Assembly (NCBI GenBank): GCA_033065855.1
Contig: JAVXUO010002345.1
Coordinates: 434,001-498,000 of the forward strand
From: Escallonia rubra
Taxonomy: Eukaryota > Streptophyta > Magnoliopsida > Escalloniales > Escalloniaceae
Length of the DNA: 64,000 bases
Direction: 5' to 3'
The stretch's first letter is position 1, and each line of letters opens with the position of its first letter. The translations under genes and the position numbers were made by a program. Shown piece by piece: positions 21,796 through 28,867 of the stretch. The notes beneath the pieces are model-generated. The model did not search any database. It worked only from the letters and a program-made list of their open reading frames with translations, and was not told where the DNA came from.

Positions 21796-22988
21796 CGAAA
21801 AAGTTCTCTAACATGAAAAATTAACCTGTAAAAAAAATTACTTAAGAGATTTAATAAGAAAAATTAGGTTCTATTTCAAATTCATAATGAAGTTTTCTCT
21901 AAATTCAAATATGAATCTAACTCAATAACTATTTTGATTAAAAATATTGGTCAATAATTTCCTTTACTCTAAAGTTTTGCGGTATCCTATTTAGTCACAT
22001 TGGTTAAATGTAAAAATACCATAATATGCAGATTCTATATGAGATACATTAAAAAAATAGTGTAAACTTAAAAAACCTTAATTATGTAAGCTTTTCTTAA
22101 ATTCAACTAATTTTATGTTGAAAAAGTTTTGAACTAATTTTTTATGGTATTTTTATTGTGAATAATTAACTATTAAGCATTCTAAATTCTACATTAGCAA
22201 TATACCATTTTTTATTTTAATTATGTAAACTTTTATAATTTTGAATAGAATTGCATATAAAATCTAAAAACATATTAGTTATTGTGTGATGAATGTATAC
22301 TGAAACTTGGATTGAAATTCTTATTATATCTGAAGCTAAATCTTACTTAGTAAGCATGCTTATTGTATACTTTGTGAAATGTTGGTTAAATTTTGTTCAG
22401 CAATTTCCTTACTACGAGGGTTTGAGGTATTGTATATAGTCATGTTGGTTAAACTTTTTAAATTTTATATAATTACTTCATGCACTGATTACTATTTTCT
22501 CTTCTTCTTAAAATGTCACACCATCCTTACTTTATTAGTTGTGTTGATTAACTTTTATAACATGCTATAAACAAATATATGGACCAAAATTTTCTCTATC
22601 AAAATTAAACTAATGTATAACTAATCTTATGGACAACCCATTCAAAGGTACAATTTATTTTTAAAAGATAAGTAGAAAAATAATAAAATGTCTTATGTAA
22701 TAGCAAGTTGATCTCAATATGTTCTCCGCATATTTTTATCTATAAAATTTACTTTTTCTTTTTTGTGTACTAAATAAGCTTTTAATTTTTGTACATCTAT
22801 AGAGTTACCCAATGAGAATTAGCAGATATGCACAAGGATATTGCTTAATGATATTTGACCAGAAATGTTAATTTATTTTATTATAATAAATTTCAAACCA
22901 AAATTAAAGTAACTCTTTCTCATAAATTATAAAATTGTGCAAGATATTTTATTATGCATTTTAAGACTACTAAGATAAATTATTGTTA
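21796..22988. other. AT-rich Helitron interior, no gene
   Basis: The sequence is roughly three quarters or more A+T. The frames are short and hydrophobic by composition. The last nine bases, TTATTGTTA (22980-22988), are the left copy of the MULE target duplication. Confidence 0.5.
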
Positions 22989-23066
22989 GGGTAAATTACA
23001 CTAAAACCCCCTGAGGTTTTACATAATTACACTCAACTACCGCTATCTTTAAAAATTACACTCCGC
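22989..23066 (+). repeat. MULE left terminal inverted repeat
   Basis: This 78-bp repeat is identical in inverted orientation to 28743-28820. It has two ATTACACT words spaced like protein-binding sites. In Mutator elements the TIR carries the transposase binding site and the promoter. Confidence 0.95.
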
Positions 23067-23327
23067 TAAATTTTTTTTTTTTCTCTTACGGTGTTAACGT
23101 TGGAATGCAAAAAGACATGAATACCCTCCTACGGTTTTCTTGAGATTTTGGAGGGAAAACCTGTTCTTGGGAATTGGAGGGAAACTTCTTCTCGGGAAGG
23201 AGGAAAAACAGGTTGGCAGAGAAGGAGGTAGGGGGTCACTGTGCGATCGGGGGAAGGGAAGCCTAGAAAAAAATCAGAGCCAAACATTTCACAACCCTAA
23301 TCTCATAAAAAAGACGACGCAACCAAT

Positions 23328-23445
23328 TCCGGTGTACCTGTGCTGCGGGACGACGTAACCACTTCCGGTGAACCTGTGCTGCGGGACGACGCAACATTTT
23401 CGGTGTACCTGTGCTGCGGGACGACAACCACTTCCGGTGAATCTA
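23328..23445 (+). repeat. 35-bp tandem repeat in the MULE 5' region
   Basis: The unit TTCCGGTGTACCTGTGCTGC plus GGGACGACGYAACCA starts at about 23328, 23363 and 23398, with a partial fourth copy at 23432. Its GC content is far above the surroundings. It lies in the probable leader or promoter of the transposase gene. Confidence 0.75.
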
Positions 23446-23599
23446 CTTGAAGGTATGTTTTCCTAACTCCTTCATGTCTTTCACGTTTTTCTCGTTATTT
23501 CCCATTTCTGATCTTTCTTCTTTTGCATGATTTCCTTAGTTGATAGCATAATGTAACCTGTAATTAGAGCCTGATTTAGGCCCTAATTCACGTAGACAC

Positions 23600-24290
23600 A
23601 TTTTGAACCCTAATTGGACCGTAATTGAACCAAATGAACTCTAATTGAACCATAATTGAACCGTAATGTAACCAATTGAACCCTAATTGAACCGGAATGT
23701 AACCAATTGAACCCTAATTGGATCGTAAGTGAACCAATTGAACTCTAATTGAACCGTAATGTAATCAATTGAACCCTAATTGGACCGTAATTGAACAAAT
23801 TGAACCCTAATTGAACCGTAATCGAACCAATTGAACTCTAATTGAACCATAATTAAACCGTAATGTAACCAATTGAACCCTAATTGAACCAATTGAACAA
23901 ATTGAACCCTAAATGAACCTTAATTGAACAAAATGACCCTAATTGAACCAATTGAACTCTAATTGAACCCTAATTGGACCCTAATTGAACAAATAGAAAC
24001 CTAATTGAACCAATTGAACTCTAATTGAACCCTAATTGGACCCTAATTGAACAAATTGGACCCTAATCGAACCCTAATTGAACAAATTGAACCCTAATTG
24101 AACCCATTGAACTCTAATTGAACAAATTGAACCCTACTTGGACCTTAATTGAACCAATTGAACCTTAATTGTACCAATTGTACTCTAATTGAACAAATTG
24201 AACCCTAATTGAATATCCTAATTCACTTAACCCCAGCTGATGAACCCTAAATTGAATGCCCTAATTGTAGCCCTAATTTAACCCCCTAAT
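23600..24290 (+). repeat. Degenerate decamer array (TAATTGAACC) in the transposase leader
   Basis: About 700 bp is built almost entirely of variants of a 10-base word, CCTAATTGAA / CCAATTGAAC, with dozens of copies and scattered point differences. It ends just before the TACAG acceptor-like site next to the transposase ATG, so it probably forms the 5' untranslated leader or its intron. The ACCCTAATT words recall plant telomere repeats, but the period is 10, not 7. Confidence 0.85.
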
Positions 24291-24311
24291 TATTTTTCCT
24301 TGTACTACAGA

Positions 24312-26834
24312 ATGGGCATTGAAAGGATATATAAACTGAGGGTCCACTACTGTAACATTGTTGATAGCATAGCTGATGTGGATCCTGACAGATACAACTA
24401 TATGGATCTGCTTACCGATGTAAATGATCTTATGTTGAAAGACCTCCCCTCTAGTTTAGGTATAGTTATTGCCCTATACTATACTTTGCCTGGAACTCAT
24501 GTCAGGGAAGAAATAACATCTGATAGGTCCTTACTTGACATGTTTGCGCTGTATGAGAATTCAGAGGAGATTCATGTGTTCTTAGAAACTGTTGGGGTAG
24601 AACCTACAGTAGTTAGTTATCCAGAACCAAATGTAGAGGCAGCTAGAAATGACAGTAGACCTGGGACTAGTAGGGCACCTGAGAGTGAGAGTGAAGATGG
24701 CAGTGATGAGGAGTTGCACCACACTAGTGATGATTCTGATTCTGAGGATAATGATTGGGAATTAAGGGAAGAATTAAGTGAGACTGATGAAGAGGAAAGT
24801 GATGAAAGTGATGAAGAGCCTGTGACAGAGGATGATCAATTAAGTGAACATGAATTGTCCAACTGTGATGATGAAGATGAAAATCCTATGTACAAGAGTG
24901 ATGATAACTTGGATGTTGAAGCAGTAAATGTAGACAAATATATGAGGGGAGAGCTATTTGAACATAGGCCAGGTGAAACTATTCAACTGTACAAGGGTTT
25001 GTTGTTTGAAGATGTCAATCATTTTAGGAATACTCTGAGAGATTATTGTATTCAGACTGGGTTTAAGCTGGTCAGAGATAGGAATGAAAAGAACAGGGTT
25101 GCTGCCCACTGTGGCAATCCTGGATGTAGTTGGAGGATATTTGCATCACCTATTTCTGATGGGAAAACTTACAAAATCAAGAGCTTAGGTCCTAAACATT
25201 CTTGTGTAATGGGCATTTCTAACAAGGAGGCCAATTCCACTTGGATTGCACAGAAGCTACTTGGGCACATTAGGGGAAATCCTGATATTACCATAAATGG
25301 GCTGCAAGAGCTTTTGCTAGAAAACTATGGTGTAGAGGCCCATGGAATGCAGTTGTACAGGGCAAAAAAGAAGGCACTAGAAAAGATTGAGGGGTCTCAT
25401 GCTGAGTCATATAAGAAGCTGTGGATGTATGGGCATGAGGTGATGAAGACTAACCCTGGGAGCTTGTTCAAGCTTGAAACTCAAAGAGTTCAACCTAACC
25501 TGGATTTGCCTCACTTCCATAGTCTGTTCTTTTCATTTGCAGCTGTGCAAAATGGCTTTAAGGATGGTTGTAGGCCATTTCTTGCAGTTGATGGATGCCA
25601 TCTTAAAGGGCCTTATGGAGGTGTATTATTGTCTGCTGTGGGCTTAGATGGGAACAATGGGTTATTCCCTATGGGATTTGCTGTTGTTGAGAGTGAGAAC
25701 ACACAGAGTTTGAGGTTTTTCCTACATCACCTTTATACCATCATAGGTGATGGTCCTGATCCAAAGCCATGGGTGATCATGTCTGATGGACAAAAGGGTA
25801 TTGAGATTGCCCTAGCAGACATTATACCACATGCAACTCATAGAAGGTGTTGTAGGCATCTTTTCTGTAATTTTAGGTCTAGATACCCTGGCATGAAGCT
25901 TAAAAGCTATTTTTGGTCTGCTGCCAAGGCATACAATGTGGATGACTTTAAGCTAGCTATGAGACAGATGGAAGACTTGTCACTAGAAGCAGCTGAATGG
26001 TTAAAAGGTCATAAAGTAGAGAGCTGGGCTAGGTATACATTTGACCCTGCTGTTAAGAATGACCAGGTAACCAGTAATATGGTGGAGTCCTTCAATAACT
26101 GGCTAGGGAAATTGAGGGGAAAACCTGTGCTATCCATGATTGATCACATTAGAACTAGGCTGATGGTAAAGGTACATGAAAGGTTTAAAAAGGCTGCTTC
26201 TTGGGAAGAAGTAGTAACTCCAAGGATAATGAAAAAATGCAAACTGGCAGTTGCTGAATCTAGATGCTGTAAAATAGTCATGGGTTCTGGGGGTACAGAG
26301 TTTGAGGTATCTGACCTTGGAAAGGTGCATGTTGTGAACTTAGTGAGGAGAAGTTGTTGTTGTAGGGTTTGGGATCTTACAGGCATACCTTGCAAGCATG
26401 CAGCAGCATGCATCAACACTAGGAGATTGGATGTGGTTGAGTTTGTGGATAGGTGCTACAGCAGGGATACTTATTTGAAAGCTTATGGTCATGTTATGCA
26501 CCCACTGCATGATGAGACCCACTGGAGGCCAGCTCCAGGGGATCCTTTGCAACCTCCCCCTTTTAGGAGGTTGCCTAGAAGACTAAGAAAGGAAAGGAAG
26601 AGGGCAGCAGATGAACCTGCTAGGGAAGGAAAAAGGTCATGCACTCTAAAGTGTGGAAATTATAAGCAATTTGGGCATAATAAAAGGACCTGCCAACGGG
26701 CACCAGTGGGAAGCAATAGAAATGCCAATGTTGCAAGACCAGTGAGGGGGGGGGGGGCAGTCAAGGTAGGGGCAATCAAGGCAGAGGCAGTGAAGCTGGG
26801 TGCAGTCAGATTGGGTGCAGCCAAGTTAGCATGA
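24312..26834 (+). CDS. MULE transposase (MURA/MuDR type)
   Basis: This enzyme cuts and joins the MULE ends in the nucleus. I chose ATG 24312 because it directly follows a TACTACAG splice-acceptor-like site; the open frame starts four codons earlier without an ATG. The 840 residues contain an N-terminal PB1-like MuDR domain (1-90) and a strongly acidic Ser/Asp/Glu stretch (about 130-210). Next is the MuDR DNA-binding domain (about 225-297) and the MULE DDE domain: D427 in AVDGCHL, D492 in MSDGQKG, a CRH pair near 515, and E592 in MVESFNNW. A SWIM finger (CCCRVWDLTGIPCKHAA, about 681-697) and a CCHC knuckle (about 778-795) follow. In the knuckle the second Cys is Tyr (CGNYKQFGHNKRTC, codon TAT). 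A 12-G run at 26746-26757 precedes an odd Ala/Val/Lys tail. In the neighbouring frame the tail reads GSQGRGNQGRGSEAG and runs to a GT (26843)…AG (26931) intron and TGA at 26976. The G-run has therefore probably shifted phase. Confidence 0.93.
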   Translation: MGIERIYKLRVHYCNIVDSIADVDPDRYNYMDLLTDVNDLMLKDLPSSLGIVIALYYTLPGTHVREEITSDRSLLDMFALYENSEEIHVFLETVGVEPTVVSYPEPNVEAARNDSRPGTSRAPESESEDGSDEELHHTSDDSDSEDNDWELREELSETDEEESDESDEEPVTEDDQLSEHELSNCDDEDENPMYKSDDNLDVEAVNVDKYMRGELFEHRPGETIQLYKGLLFEDVNHFRNTLRDYCIQTGFKLVRDRNEKNRVAAHCGNPGCSWRIFASPISDGKTYKIKSLGPKHSCVMGISNKEANSTWIAQKLLGHIRGNPDITINGLQELLLENYGVEAHGMQLYRAKKKALEKIEGSHAESYKKLWMYGHEVMKTNPGSLFKLETQRVQPNLDLPHFHSLFFSFAAVQNGFKDGCRPFLAVDGCHLKGPYGGVLLSAVGLDGNNGLFPMGFAVVESENTQSLRFFLHHLYTIIGDGPDPKPWVIMSDGQKGIEIALADIIPHATHRRCCRHLFCNFRSRYPGMKLKSYFWSAAKAYNVDDFKLAMRQMEDLSLEAAEWLKGHKVESWARYTFDPAVKNDQVTSNMVESFNNWLGKLRGKPVLSMIDHIRTRLMVKVHERFKKAASWEEVVTPRIMKKCKLAVAESRCCKIVMGSGGTEFEVSDLGKVHVVNLVRRSCCCRVWDLTGIPCKHAAACINTRRLDVVEFVDRCYSRDTYLKAYGHVMHPLHDETHWRPAPGDPLQPPPFRRLPRRLRKERKRAADEPAREGKRSCTLKCGNYKQFGHNKRTCQRAPVGSNRNANVARPVRGGGAVKVGAIKAEAVKLGAVRLGAAKLA

Positions 26835-26842
26835 ATGAGCAG

Positions 26843-26976
26843 GTAACCACTGATTTCTTTAACTTGTTTTTCAGACTTTAACTTATTATTGTTTTCCTCA
26901 AGTTTTCCCAATCTATTTTTTTTTTTAACAGGGAGGACCTGAGGTGGTGACTCAAACCCAGGAGTCACAGCCTTGA
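26843..26976 (+). other. Probable last intron and exon of the transposase gene
   Basis: GTAACC at 26843 and a pyrimidine-rich TTTTTTAACAG ending at 26931 form a good plant intron of 89 nt. Joined to the alternative frame after the G-run, the next exon (26932-26976) reads GGPEVVTQTQESQP and then TGA. The fit of frame, splice sites and hydrophilic composition supports it as the original C-terminus. Confidence 0.6.
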
Positions 26977-27007
26977 AGCTGCAGAGAAGGGTGAGGGTAT
27001 TTGTAGA

Positions 27008-27240
27008 TATGAAATGACTTTTGTGAAGCTGTGAATGAAGATTCTTTTGTGAAGCTAGTTGAAGACAGATTGAAGATTATTTTGTGAAGCTGTGAATGAT
27101 GATTATTTTTGTGAAGCTAGTTGAAGATAGATTGAAGATTATTTTGTGAAGCTAACTGAAGATATTGTGAAGATTATTTTGCGAAGCTGAATGAAGAAAT
27201 TGTGAATACCTTGTGACTGCATACAAGTTTTTGAAGTTGA
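27008..27240 (+). repeat. Imperfect tandem repeats after the transposase
   Basis: Repeats of 'gaagctgtgaatgaagattattttgtgaagctagttgaagatagatt', with a period of about 30-60 bp, make four to five copies. They probably lie in the 3' untranslated region of the transposase transcript. Confidence 0.65.
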
Positions 27241-28048
27241 AGTCCAAGGAATATGTTAGCTTTAGGTCCCAAATATGTGACAGACAATGTGTACACTTTT
27301 TAAAGTTTAGGTTACAGTCAACACATGCACAAGTTTGGATTATGTAAGCTTAGATCTTGGGGATGATGTAAACTGTCTATTTTTGGATAATGAAACCATG
27401 GTTGTATTAAATCTCAGTGCTTTTTGTAATTTACCAATTAGTTTGTGGGCACATTGCAGTTTGGTGCAATGTGTTTGTGTATTTGATTTGTTGCACTTGG
27501 TTGTCTTCATTTGGTCTGTTGCATTGAGTTTATGCAGTGTGTTGCAATACAGCAGTGGGTTGCACTGTGTTGGTGCATACTGCTGTGGTGGTGCATTTTG
27601 TTTATGGAGTTGGTTGCAATATGTTGGTGATACCCTGGCATGATTTGGGTGTAGTTTGTTTGTTCACTAGTTTTGAGCAGGGTCACTCCAATTCAACAAT
27701 TCAGCAGTTTGTTTATTCACATGATTTGGTGATACCCTGGCATGATTTGGTTGCAATATGTTGATCATGTCCTGATTTGCTGATTTGCATCATATTCATC
27801 CACAGCATGTCATGTCATGCGCAAAAATAGTTACTTTTCAAATTACACAGAACTCCCATGAGGTTTGCATTAATTACACTGAGCTCCAATTACGAAAAAG
27901 ATCAGAGAAGGCCATACAGAGAAAAACCTAGAACATCACATTCATTCACCTTCTTCATACAAAGTCATTACAAAATATTACAAAAGAGCTCTGGAAAGGA
28001 AAATGAAGCCCACATTACTTGCAGTACATAAACACACACCCAAATTCC
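27241..28048. other. MULE spacer between the two genes
   Basis: The spacer is rich in TTGCA/TGTTG words. A 20-bp phrase, GATACCCTGGCATGATTTGG, occurs at 27629 and 27731. At 27838-27890 the sequence AATTACACAGAACTCCCATG plus AGGTTTGCATTAATTACACT resembles the TIR core (CCCTGAGGTTTTACATAATT). The two genes converge here, so both polyadenylation sites should lie in this spacer. Confidence 0.5.
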
Positions 28049-28471
28049 TCATTTGCGGACAACAAAAAACATCACCATAATACACATCCATGAGGAAATT
28101 AGAGAAATAATAACCAACAACTTCACCATTGTCTGATTAGCTTCAATCAACTGTAATTTTTGACCGGTTACAACTCCATTTCCATCAAAAGAGTGCATCT
28201 TTGCCTCTTCATTGATCTCGGGCCTTTGAATCTCGTCAGAAAACTCAGATGAACATTTCATTAACCTTCCACTTGGCTTCATTGTTGCTCTATCAGGTGT
28301 GCACCAAGTGAACATTTTACATCCACCACTTGCACAAGAGAAGAACAACTTACCTTTACTTGGCTTCTCATCAGATTCAACAATCCTCAAGTTTGCCCTC
28401 TTTCTACACCAACAATTCTTGTACCTAAACCTTAGATCCAACCACTCTTCATTACTTTCTGACCAAGACAT
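28049..28471 (-). CDS. GRF zinc-finger protein with C-terminal membrane segment (second MULE gene)
   Basis: This 140-residue frame starts at a true ATG (28471). Residues 20-57 form a GRF-type zinc finger: CWCRKRANLRIV, then KGKLFFSCASGGC, then FTWCTPD. These give the four metal ligands and the central 'F-F-x-C' typical of the family, with Lys-Gly-Lys in place of the usual Gly-Arg-Arg. The C-terminus (about 114-138, LLVIISLISSWMCIMVMFFVV) is one hydrophobic helix ending in RK. GRF fingers bind nucleic acid in other proteins. Small GRF-plus-helix proteins are widespread and uncharacterised in plants. Here the gene lies inside the MULE, converging on the transposase and about 270 bp from the right TIR. 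It may be a second transposon protein, a position comparable to mudrB in maize MuDR, or a captured host gene. Its function is unknown. Confidence 0.8.
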   Translation of the reverse strand: MSWSESNEEWLDLRFRYKNCWCRKRANLRIVESDEKPSKGKLFFSCASGGCKMFTWCTPDRATMKPSGRLMKCSSEFSDEIQRPEINEEAKMHSFDGNGVVTGQKLQLIEANQTMVKLLVIISLISSWMCIMVMFFVVRK

Positions 28472-28742
28472 TGTTACCCTTTAAATTGATGGGTCTGATT
28501 TTACTTTAGGGATAAAAGGGCATGAGCAGAAAGTGGAGGAAGGGAAGAACCTGCTGTGGAGTTGGCTGAAATTATGTAAAAACCCACATTACAAGAAGAT
28601 CACACAAGGGAGTAAAGGACAAAGAGGGGGTATTTTGGGTATGAAAATTGCATAAAAGTGTGTGTCAGGGAATCTCCTCACGGAGTTGGACGGCCCGTTA
28701 AATCTGTGTAATTGAGTGTAATGCGGGTACAAACCTCAGGGG
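28472..28742 (-). promoter_or_regulatory. Leader and promoter region of the GRF gene
   Basis: Between the GRF ATG and the right TIR, the minus strand carries a partial second copy of the TIR core. CCCCTGAGGTTTGTACCCGC followed by ATTACACTCAA lies at about 28705-28742, directly inside the TIR. Doubled TIR cores could be extra transposase binding sites or promoter elements. No clear TATA box was identified. Confidence 0.4.
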
Positions 28743-28820
28743 GCGGAGTGTAATTTTTAAAGATAGCGGTAGTTGAGTGTAATTATGTAAAACCTCAGGG
28801 GGTTTTAGTGTAATTTACCC
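28743..28820 (-). repeat. MULE right terminal inverted repeat
   Basis: This is the 78-bp inverted copy of 22989-23066, ending GTGTAATTTACCC and followed by the TTATTGTTA target duplication. Confidence 0.95.
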
Positions 28821-28867
28821 TTATTGTTAATAAATTGTCCCGTGCTTGGCACAGGATTCTGGGCTAG

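Follow-up and report, generated by a model that had tools for sequence, protein, structure and literature searches.

A MuDR-type MULE with a GRF zinc-ribbon-like second gene in Escallonia rubra, and the near-identical burst copies of its family

The 64,000-nucleotide stretch of the Escallonia rubra genome analysed here (contig JAVXUO010002345.1, positions 434,001 to 498,000; the window) contains a two-gene Mutator-like element (MULE) bounded by terminal inverted repeats (TIRs) and a target-site duplication (TSD). We are confident that it represents a MuDR-type family with a probable GRF accessory gene, that the window copy is an older and probably impaired member, that a sister lineage moved recently, and that TIRs of the family also bound host-gene fragments (Pack-MULEs). 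Assignment to the MULE superfamily, MuDR type, rests on a transposase domain, the 9-bp TSD (8-11 bp, typically 9, in the superfamily), long TIRs found family-wide and the catalytic DDE residues in order. The first-pass annotation had described identical 78-bp TIRs, a perfect 9-bp TSD and an apparently complete element with two genes. All of this was recovered: TIRs identical at 78/78 positions, a TSD matching at 9/9, an 840-codon transposase and, convergent to it, an open reading frame (ORF) of 140 amino acids (aa). The transposase matches the Pfam domains MULE (PF10551, 1.1e-15), DBD_Tnp_Mut (PF03108, 3.1e-12) and SWIM (1.5e-5). Searching the window by tblastn with both proteins returned no matches beyond the proteins themselves.

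Family copies and the age of the window copy

Searched against the whole genome (a 566-Mb assembly of 3,222 contigs) with up to 3 mismatches, the 78-bp TIR gave 138 matches (65 + 73), and the reversed control gave 0 + 0. Twenty other full copies were fetched at first, and L030 was added later. The TSDs of the first 20 were exact (9/9) in 17, 8/9 in L014 and L015, and 10 bp long in L010, so that the genome search proposed in the first-pass annotation bore out a multicopy family. Two copies on different contigs, L024 and L025, share one insertion and its TSD; the elements have diverged by 1.14% and their flanks are 97-100% alike, and, judged by these similarities, they are a duplicated or allelic locus.

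Eleven copies form a burst (L009, L011, L013, L016, L017, L019, L020, L021, L023, L026 and L030), with 0-20 substitutions in ~6 kb (substitutions only, indels uncounted) and seven of them at 0-3. Plant substitution rates lie at 0.7-1.3e-8 per site and year, at which 0-3 differences in 6 kb would correspond to tens of thousands of years at most. The window copy diverges from ten burst copies by 2.1-2.3%. Compared with 11 other lineages, among which the burst is one, 67 substitutions are private to it out of 5,583 positions counted (1.2%), or roughly 0.9-1.7 million years at the same rates. In a separate count, 37 of 66 window singletons were G>A or C>T. Mean pairwise divergence among the 12 lineages was 1.23% in the GRF gene, 1.69% in the transposase, 2.0-2.9% in non-coding sequence and 2.8-3.7% in the TIRs.

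The window transposase retains its full 840-codon frame and DDE residues, as the first-pass annotation had it; that picture is qualified by a zinc knuckle that has lost a cysteine (CGNY vs CGNC) and by a tail whose frame varies among copies. The knuckle motif is complete in 19 of 22 full copies. The other exceptions are L010, with a different change, and L012, without a motif match. The 26 private changes in the window transposase comprise 17 nonsynonymous and 9 synonymous ones, and the burst lineage has three private transposase changes, all synonymous. Of the 22 full copies, 16 have a transposase ORF that reaches 816 aa or more. The last ~20 transposase codons follow a run of G, the length of which, and hence the frame, differs between copies. 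Around window positions ~26748-26834, this G-run and 15-bp repeats shift the frame of the transposase tail even among near-identical burst copies, as a real difference or an assembly error.

When the window flanks were joined with one TSD, they matched continuously on contig C616, where base-by-base reading showed a single TTATTGTTA. This is an empty site within the same genome, a paralogue and not an allele: along 3.47 kb the joined locus and C616 are 94.7% identical, with 115 mismatches (3.3% substitutions) and 25 gaps. By parsimony, the insertion would be later than the duplication that produced the empty paralogue. The divergence of the element agrees with this order, since twice its 1.2% private substitutions, 2.4%, is below the 3.3% that separates the window locus from C616. 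Joined flanks of burst copies likewise matched across the junction at paralogous sites in four of the five copies tried (L009, L011, L023 and L026; alignments across the junction, without base-by-base reading), and the fifth, L013, had no such match. Those of L011 have a 99% match elsewhere on the same contig, and a translation across them carries a carbonic-anhydrase domain (PF00194, 3.1e-10), so that this copy appears to have inserted in a carbonic-anhydrase exon. A carbonic-anhydrase stretch also occurs in the flanks of L026.

These data bear on two alternative accounts of the copies. Near-identical elements could be haplotigs or segmental duplicates that need no transposition, as L024 and L025, outside the burst, exemplify with their common TSD and similar flanks. 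We regard this as very improbable for the burst, because the ten copies compared (all but L030, whose TSD is a T-run) differ in TSD and share only short, partial matches in their flanks, and because of the paralogous empty sites. The other account, put forward by the first-pass annotation, takes the window copy itself to be young, functional and still mobile. Identical TIRs, a perfect TSD, an open frame and the empty paralogue on C616 all speak for it. However, at the window copy's own divergence, the chance that both TIRs (156 bp) remain unchanged is ~0.15-0.16 (0.165 with 5,832 as divisor), which makes their identity weak evidence of youth. Youth argued from TIR identity was accordingly rejected; in this element, identical short TIRs prove a poor clock. 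Set against a young copy are also its distance from the burst, its private substitutions, the lost zinc-knuckle cysteine and the GRF gene, where each of its five private changes is nonsynonymous. We thus consider a young window copy improbable; by sequence comparison, it is an older insertion that has drifted and is probably impaired. The broader claim of the first-pass annotation, that the family moved recently, held up, given eleven near-identical copies, paralogous empty sites and Pack-MULEs. By these comparisons, the very recent spread of the family is placed in a sister lineage of the window copy.

The GRF gene within and beyond the family

The second protein of the window element has four of four ribbon cysteines (C20, C22, C46 and C51), presumably zinc ligands. 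In an alignment with its relatives, C22, C46 and C51 are invariant and C20 is present in 9 of 10 proteins. A terminal hydrophobic stretch occurs in 6 of 6 GRF proteins examined. AlphaFold models of the protein have low mean confidence (pLDDT 44 and 50), the C-terminal helix being the well-scoring part. The 140-aa ORF is found in 18 of 22 full copies. Five GRF relatives exceed the Pfam cut-off of PF06839 (28.3-32.5 bits), and that of L059 matches structures of NEIL3 (PDB 7omk and 7jl5, E 9.4e-5 and 1.2e-4).

A genome search with PF06839 gave 115 matches among the 150 scored of 345 candidates, many in groups of equal score. Eleven GRF loci were read, six chosen from equal-score groups and five spread down the list by approximate rank, including the top match. 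At 10 of the 11, a MULE transposase lies convergent on the opposite strand. The top match, probably a host gene, had no MULE transposase in the 7 kb retrieved around it. Identity of the linked transposases to that of the window is ~28-67% in nine larger matches, and 49% over a 233-residue stretch in L065. Four of five GRF-bearing elements tested have 9-bp TSDs (L058, L060, L061 and L062), and none was found for L059. Inverted ends are present in L065, L066 and L067; in L063 and L068 no inverted ends, or none suitable, were found.

Between diverged copies, the ratio of nonsynonymous to synonymous change (dN/dS) in the GRF gene is below 1: 0.40 for window-L058 (bootstrap 0.21-0.68; at least 1 in 0 of 300), 0.37 for L009-L058 (at least 1 in 0 of 300) and 0.28 for L061-L063 (0.14-0.52; at least 1 in 1 of 300). 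The transposase value for window-L058 is 0.26, and the GRF comparison of window and L060 (0.62/1.22) is near saturation. These ratios indicate that the GRF gene is kept by selection between diverged MULE copies. Trees of the GRF protein and of the transposase recover the same four locus groups.

Several observations weigh against the overall reading. The window protein scores 21.4 bits against PF06839, under the cut-off of 25.9. The first GRF stop falls at 140 aa in 24 of 38 sequences when 16 further stretches are included, and changes shared within the family (22 nonsynonymous to 6 synonymous, for 343 to 80 sites) show no constraint. The ten transposase-linked loci represent only about five subfamilies. 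The GRF and transposase trees disagree in deep branching order at a single node, which has a support of 0.77 in the former. Finally, between L061 and L063 the GRF identity is 84%, and the transposase cores are ~98% alike (tree distances); a GRF gene so much more diverged than its transposase is unexpected under simple co-descent, and second genes may have been exchanged between MULEs. The within-family test has little power, because the transposase looks about equally neutral (18 to 6, for 1910 to 502 sites).

Could the GRF gene be a passenger, captured from the host and without a role in transposition? The neutral pattern and the limited share of full-length ORFs within the family would fit, MULEs do capture genes, and family-type TIRs did so elsewhere in this genome. 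The TIR-like sequence between the two genes is moreover what a nested capture could leave. In the window, it matches the TIR at 36/50 positions vs 25 in the best of 5 shuffles, and similar values hold for L009 (37/50), L012 and L027 (both 36/50); outside the family it is weak in L060 (29/50) and lacking in L058 (23/50). It possibly records the way in which the element gained its GRF module. Yet a passenger would hardly recur in the same arrangement at 10 of 11 sampled loci beside transposases that are ~28-67% identical, with dN/dS below 1 in diverged pairs, three invariant ribbon cysteines, a fourth in 9 of 10, and the terminal hydrophobic stretch in all six proteins. We therefore judge the passenger account unlikely and favour an accessory gene.

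How the accessory gene might act can be sketched from related systems. The DDE transposase would bind the TIRs and excise or copy the element, which would insert with a 9-bp stagger; the TIRs are in place, and TSDs and paralogous empty sites are footprints of transposition. The GRF protein, with its membrane-helix-like C-terminus, would probably be an accessory factor, either in transposition or in evading silencing, as suggested by the same arrangement in distant MULEs together with selection between diverged copies. GRF zinc fingers bind single-stranded DNA, and APE2 and TOP3A carry them; by analogy, the GRF ribbon may assist the transposase. Alternatively, it may counter silencing, as VANC is described to do in the parts of the MULE survey cited below that deal with it. 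The sister lineage amplified very recently, and TIRs of the family also bound host-gene fragments. A wider and more tentative reading, which we think somewhat less probable than its opposite, is that a convergent gene for a GRF ribbon with a membrane helix defines a large clade of plant MULEs, as a selected accessory factor and a so far undescribed counterpart of mudrB and vanC. The GRF protein might then, for example, work with the transposase by binding single-stranded DNA or by countering silencing, perhaps at the nuclear envelope.

Coordinates of the window element are collected in Table 1. A repeat search gives 79 bp for its TIRs, as one TSD base pairs by chance. We take D427, D492 and E592 to be the catalytic residues.

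Table 1. Features of the window element (positions in the window)
Feature	Position	Strand	Remarks
MULE, TIR to TIR	22989-28820		5,832 bp
Left TSD TTATTGTTA	22980..22988	.	single copy at paralogous empty site C616
5' TIR	22989..23066	+	78 bp
Probable intron of the 5' untranslated region, filled by degenerate ATTGAACC-type tandem repeats	23453..24310	+	GT/AG by eye (inference)
Degenerate ATTGAACC-type tandem repeats inside the probable 5' intron	23603-24213		
MuDR/mudrA-type transposase ORF	24312..26834	+	840 aa from ATG; DBD_Tnp_Mut, MULE DDE, SWIM
Catalytic D427 (VDGCH)	25590..25592	+	motif position
Catalytic D492 (MSDGQ)	25785..25787	+	motif position
Catalytic E592 (VESFNN)	26085..26087	+	motif position
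CCHC zinc knuckle	26652..26693	+	private Cys784Tyr in window copy
Internal TIR-like sequence between transposase and GRF genes	27840..27885	+	50-base comparison
GRF zinc-ribbon-like gene with C-terminal hydrophobic helix	28049..28471	-	140 aa; convergent to transposase
3' TIR	28743..28820	-	78 bp
Right TSD TTATTGTTA	28821..28829	.	

Pack-MULEs with family-type TIRs

Among the matches listed, 23 TIR pairs span 1.22-1.67 kb. From these, nine elements of 1.22-1.23 kb (L031-L039) were retrieved. Identity to L031 (L031:201-1432) is 97.2-99.8% in the eight others, and the TIR is two bases off that of the window. The 9-bp TSD is exact in five of the nine and matches at 8/9 in another; one has a TSD of 10 bp, and two are without a clean TSD. 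L031, the one of the nine scanned for domains, contains a DnaJ fragment and a second fragment that we take to be LEA14-like, with no match in Pfam; a DnaJ fragment also occurs in L040, of 1.67 kb. Complete or almost complete matches to the interior of L031, with an identity of at least 95%, occur at 19 or more places in the genome.

A longer element of 2.09 kb, L041 (L041:201-2291), encloses a fragment of callose synthase (PF02364, 6.2e-59) together with what remains of a GRF gene. Its interior is 98% identical to contig C3174 (257419-258719) along 1,301 bp. Because C3174 has no similarity to L041 where the ends of the element would fall, it is the likely donor of the fragment, the direction of capture being inferred from this pattern. 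A second 98% match, on C3034, adjoins a family TIR and is probably another copy of the element; further matches are two short blocks on C2477 (98-99%) and the whole interior on C1475 at 76%. L041 and C3174 together thus show MULE TIRs around a host-gene fragment with its putative donor elsewhere, the arrangement that characterizes a Pack-MULE.

Comparison with known systems

MULEs with second ORFs (mudrB, antisense PMD) and Pack-MULEs are already known, as set out in the portions of Dupeyron et al. (2019; PMC6446971) drawn on here. 'GRF' does not occur in the main text of that survey, and no MULE with a GRF gene as its second gene turned up in targeted literature searches, from which subscription journals were mostly absent, so its novelty is provisional. 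In the part of PMC8774480 consulted, GRF is the name of a software. Should the GRF protein prove to be a partner of the transposase that is under selection, the few known types of accessory gene would gain a further one. Near-identical autonomous copies, Pack-MULEs and a likely donor within one assembly make gene capture and the role of the accessory gene testable in one plant.

By description, the window element resembles maize MuDR (MUDR clade, group 50, in PMC6446971), which has a mudrA-type transposase with SWIM, TIRs, a 9-bp TSD and a second gene. The table of that survey lists the PMD motif or ORF in antisense for most group-50 members, whereas the second gene of the window element encodes a GRF-like zinc ribbon in place of mudrB or PMD. 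VANDAL21/Hiun likewise carries extra genes beside its transposase, among them the anti-silencing gene vanC; unlike the window element, VANDALs include non-TIR elements, and VANC is not described as a GRF protein in those portions of the survey (PMC6446971). Compared with the GRF domains of NEIL3, APE2 and TOP3A, the protein reported here is a short ribbon that stands alone, ends in a hydrophobic helix and is borne by a transposon. The small elements resemble Pack-MULEs in being non-autonomous, with near-identical TIRs, mostly 9-bp TSDs and host-gene fragments (L031, L040 and L041). They differ in nothing essential; here, a single assembly contains both an autonomous element related to them and a gene that is a likely donor.

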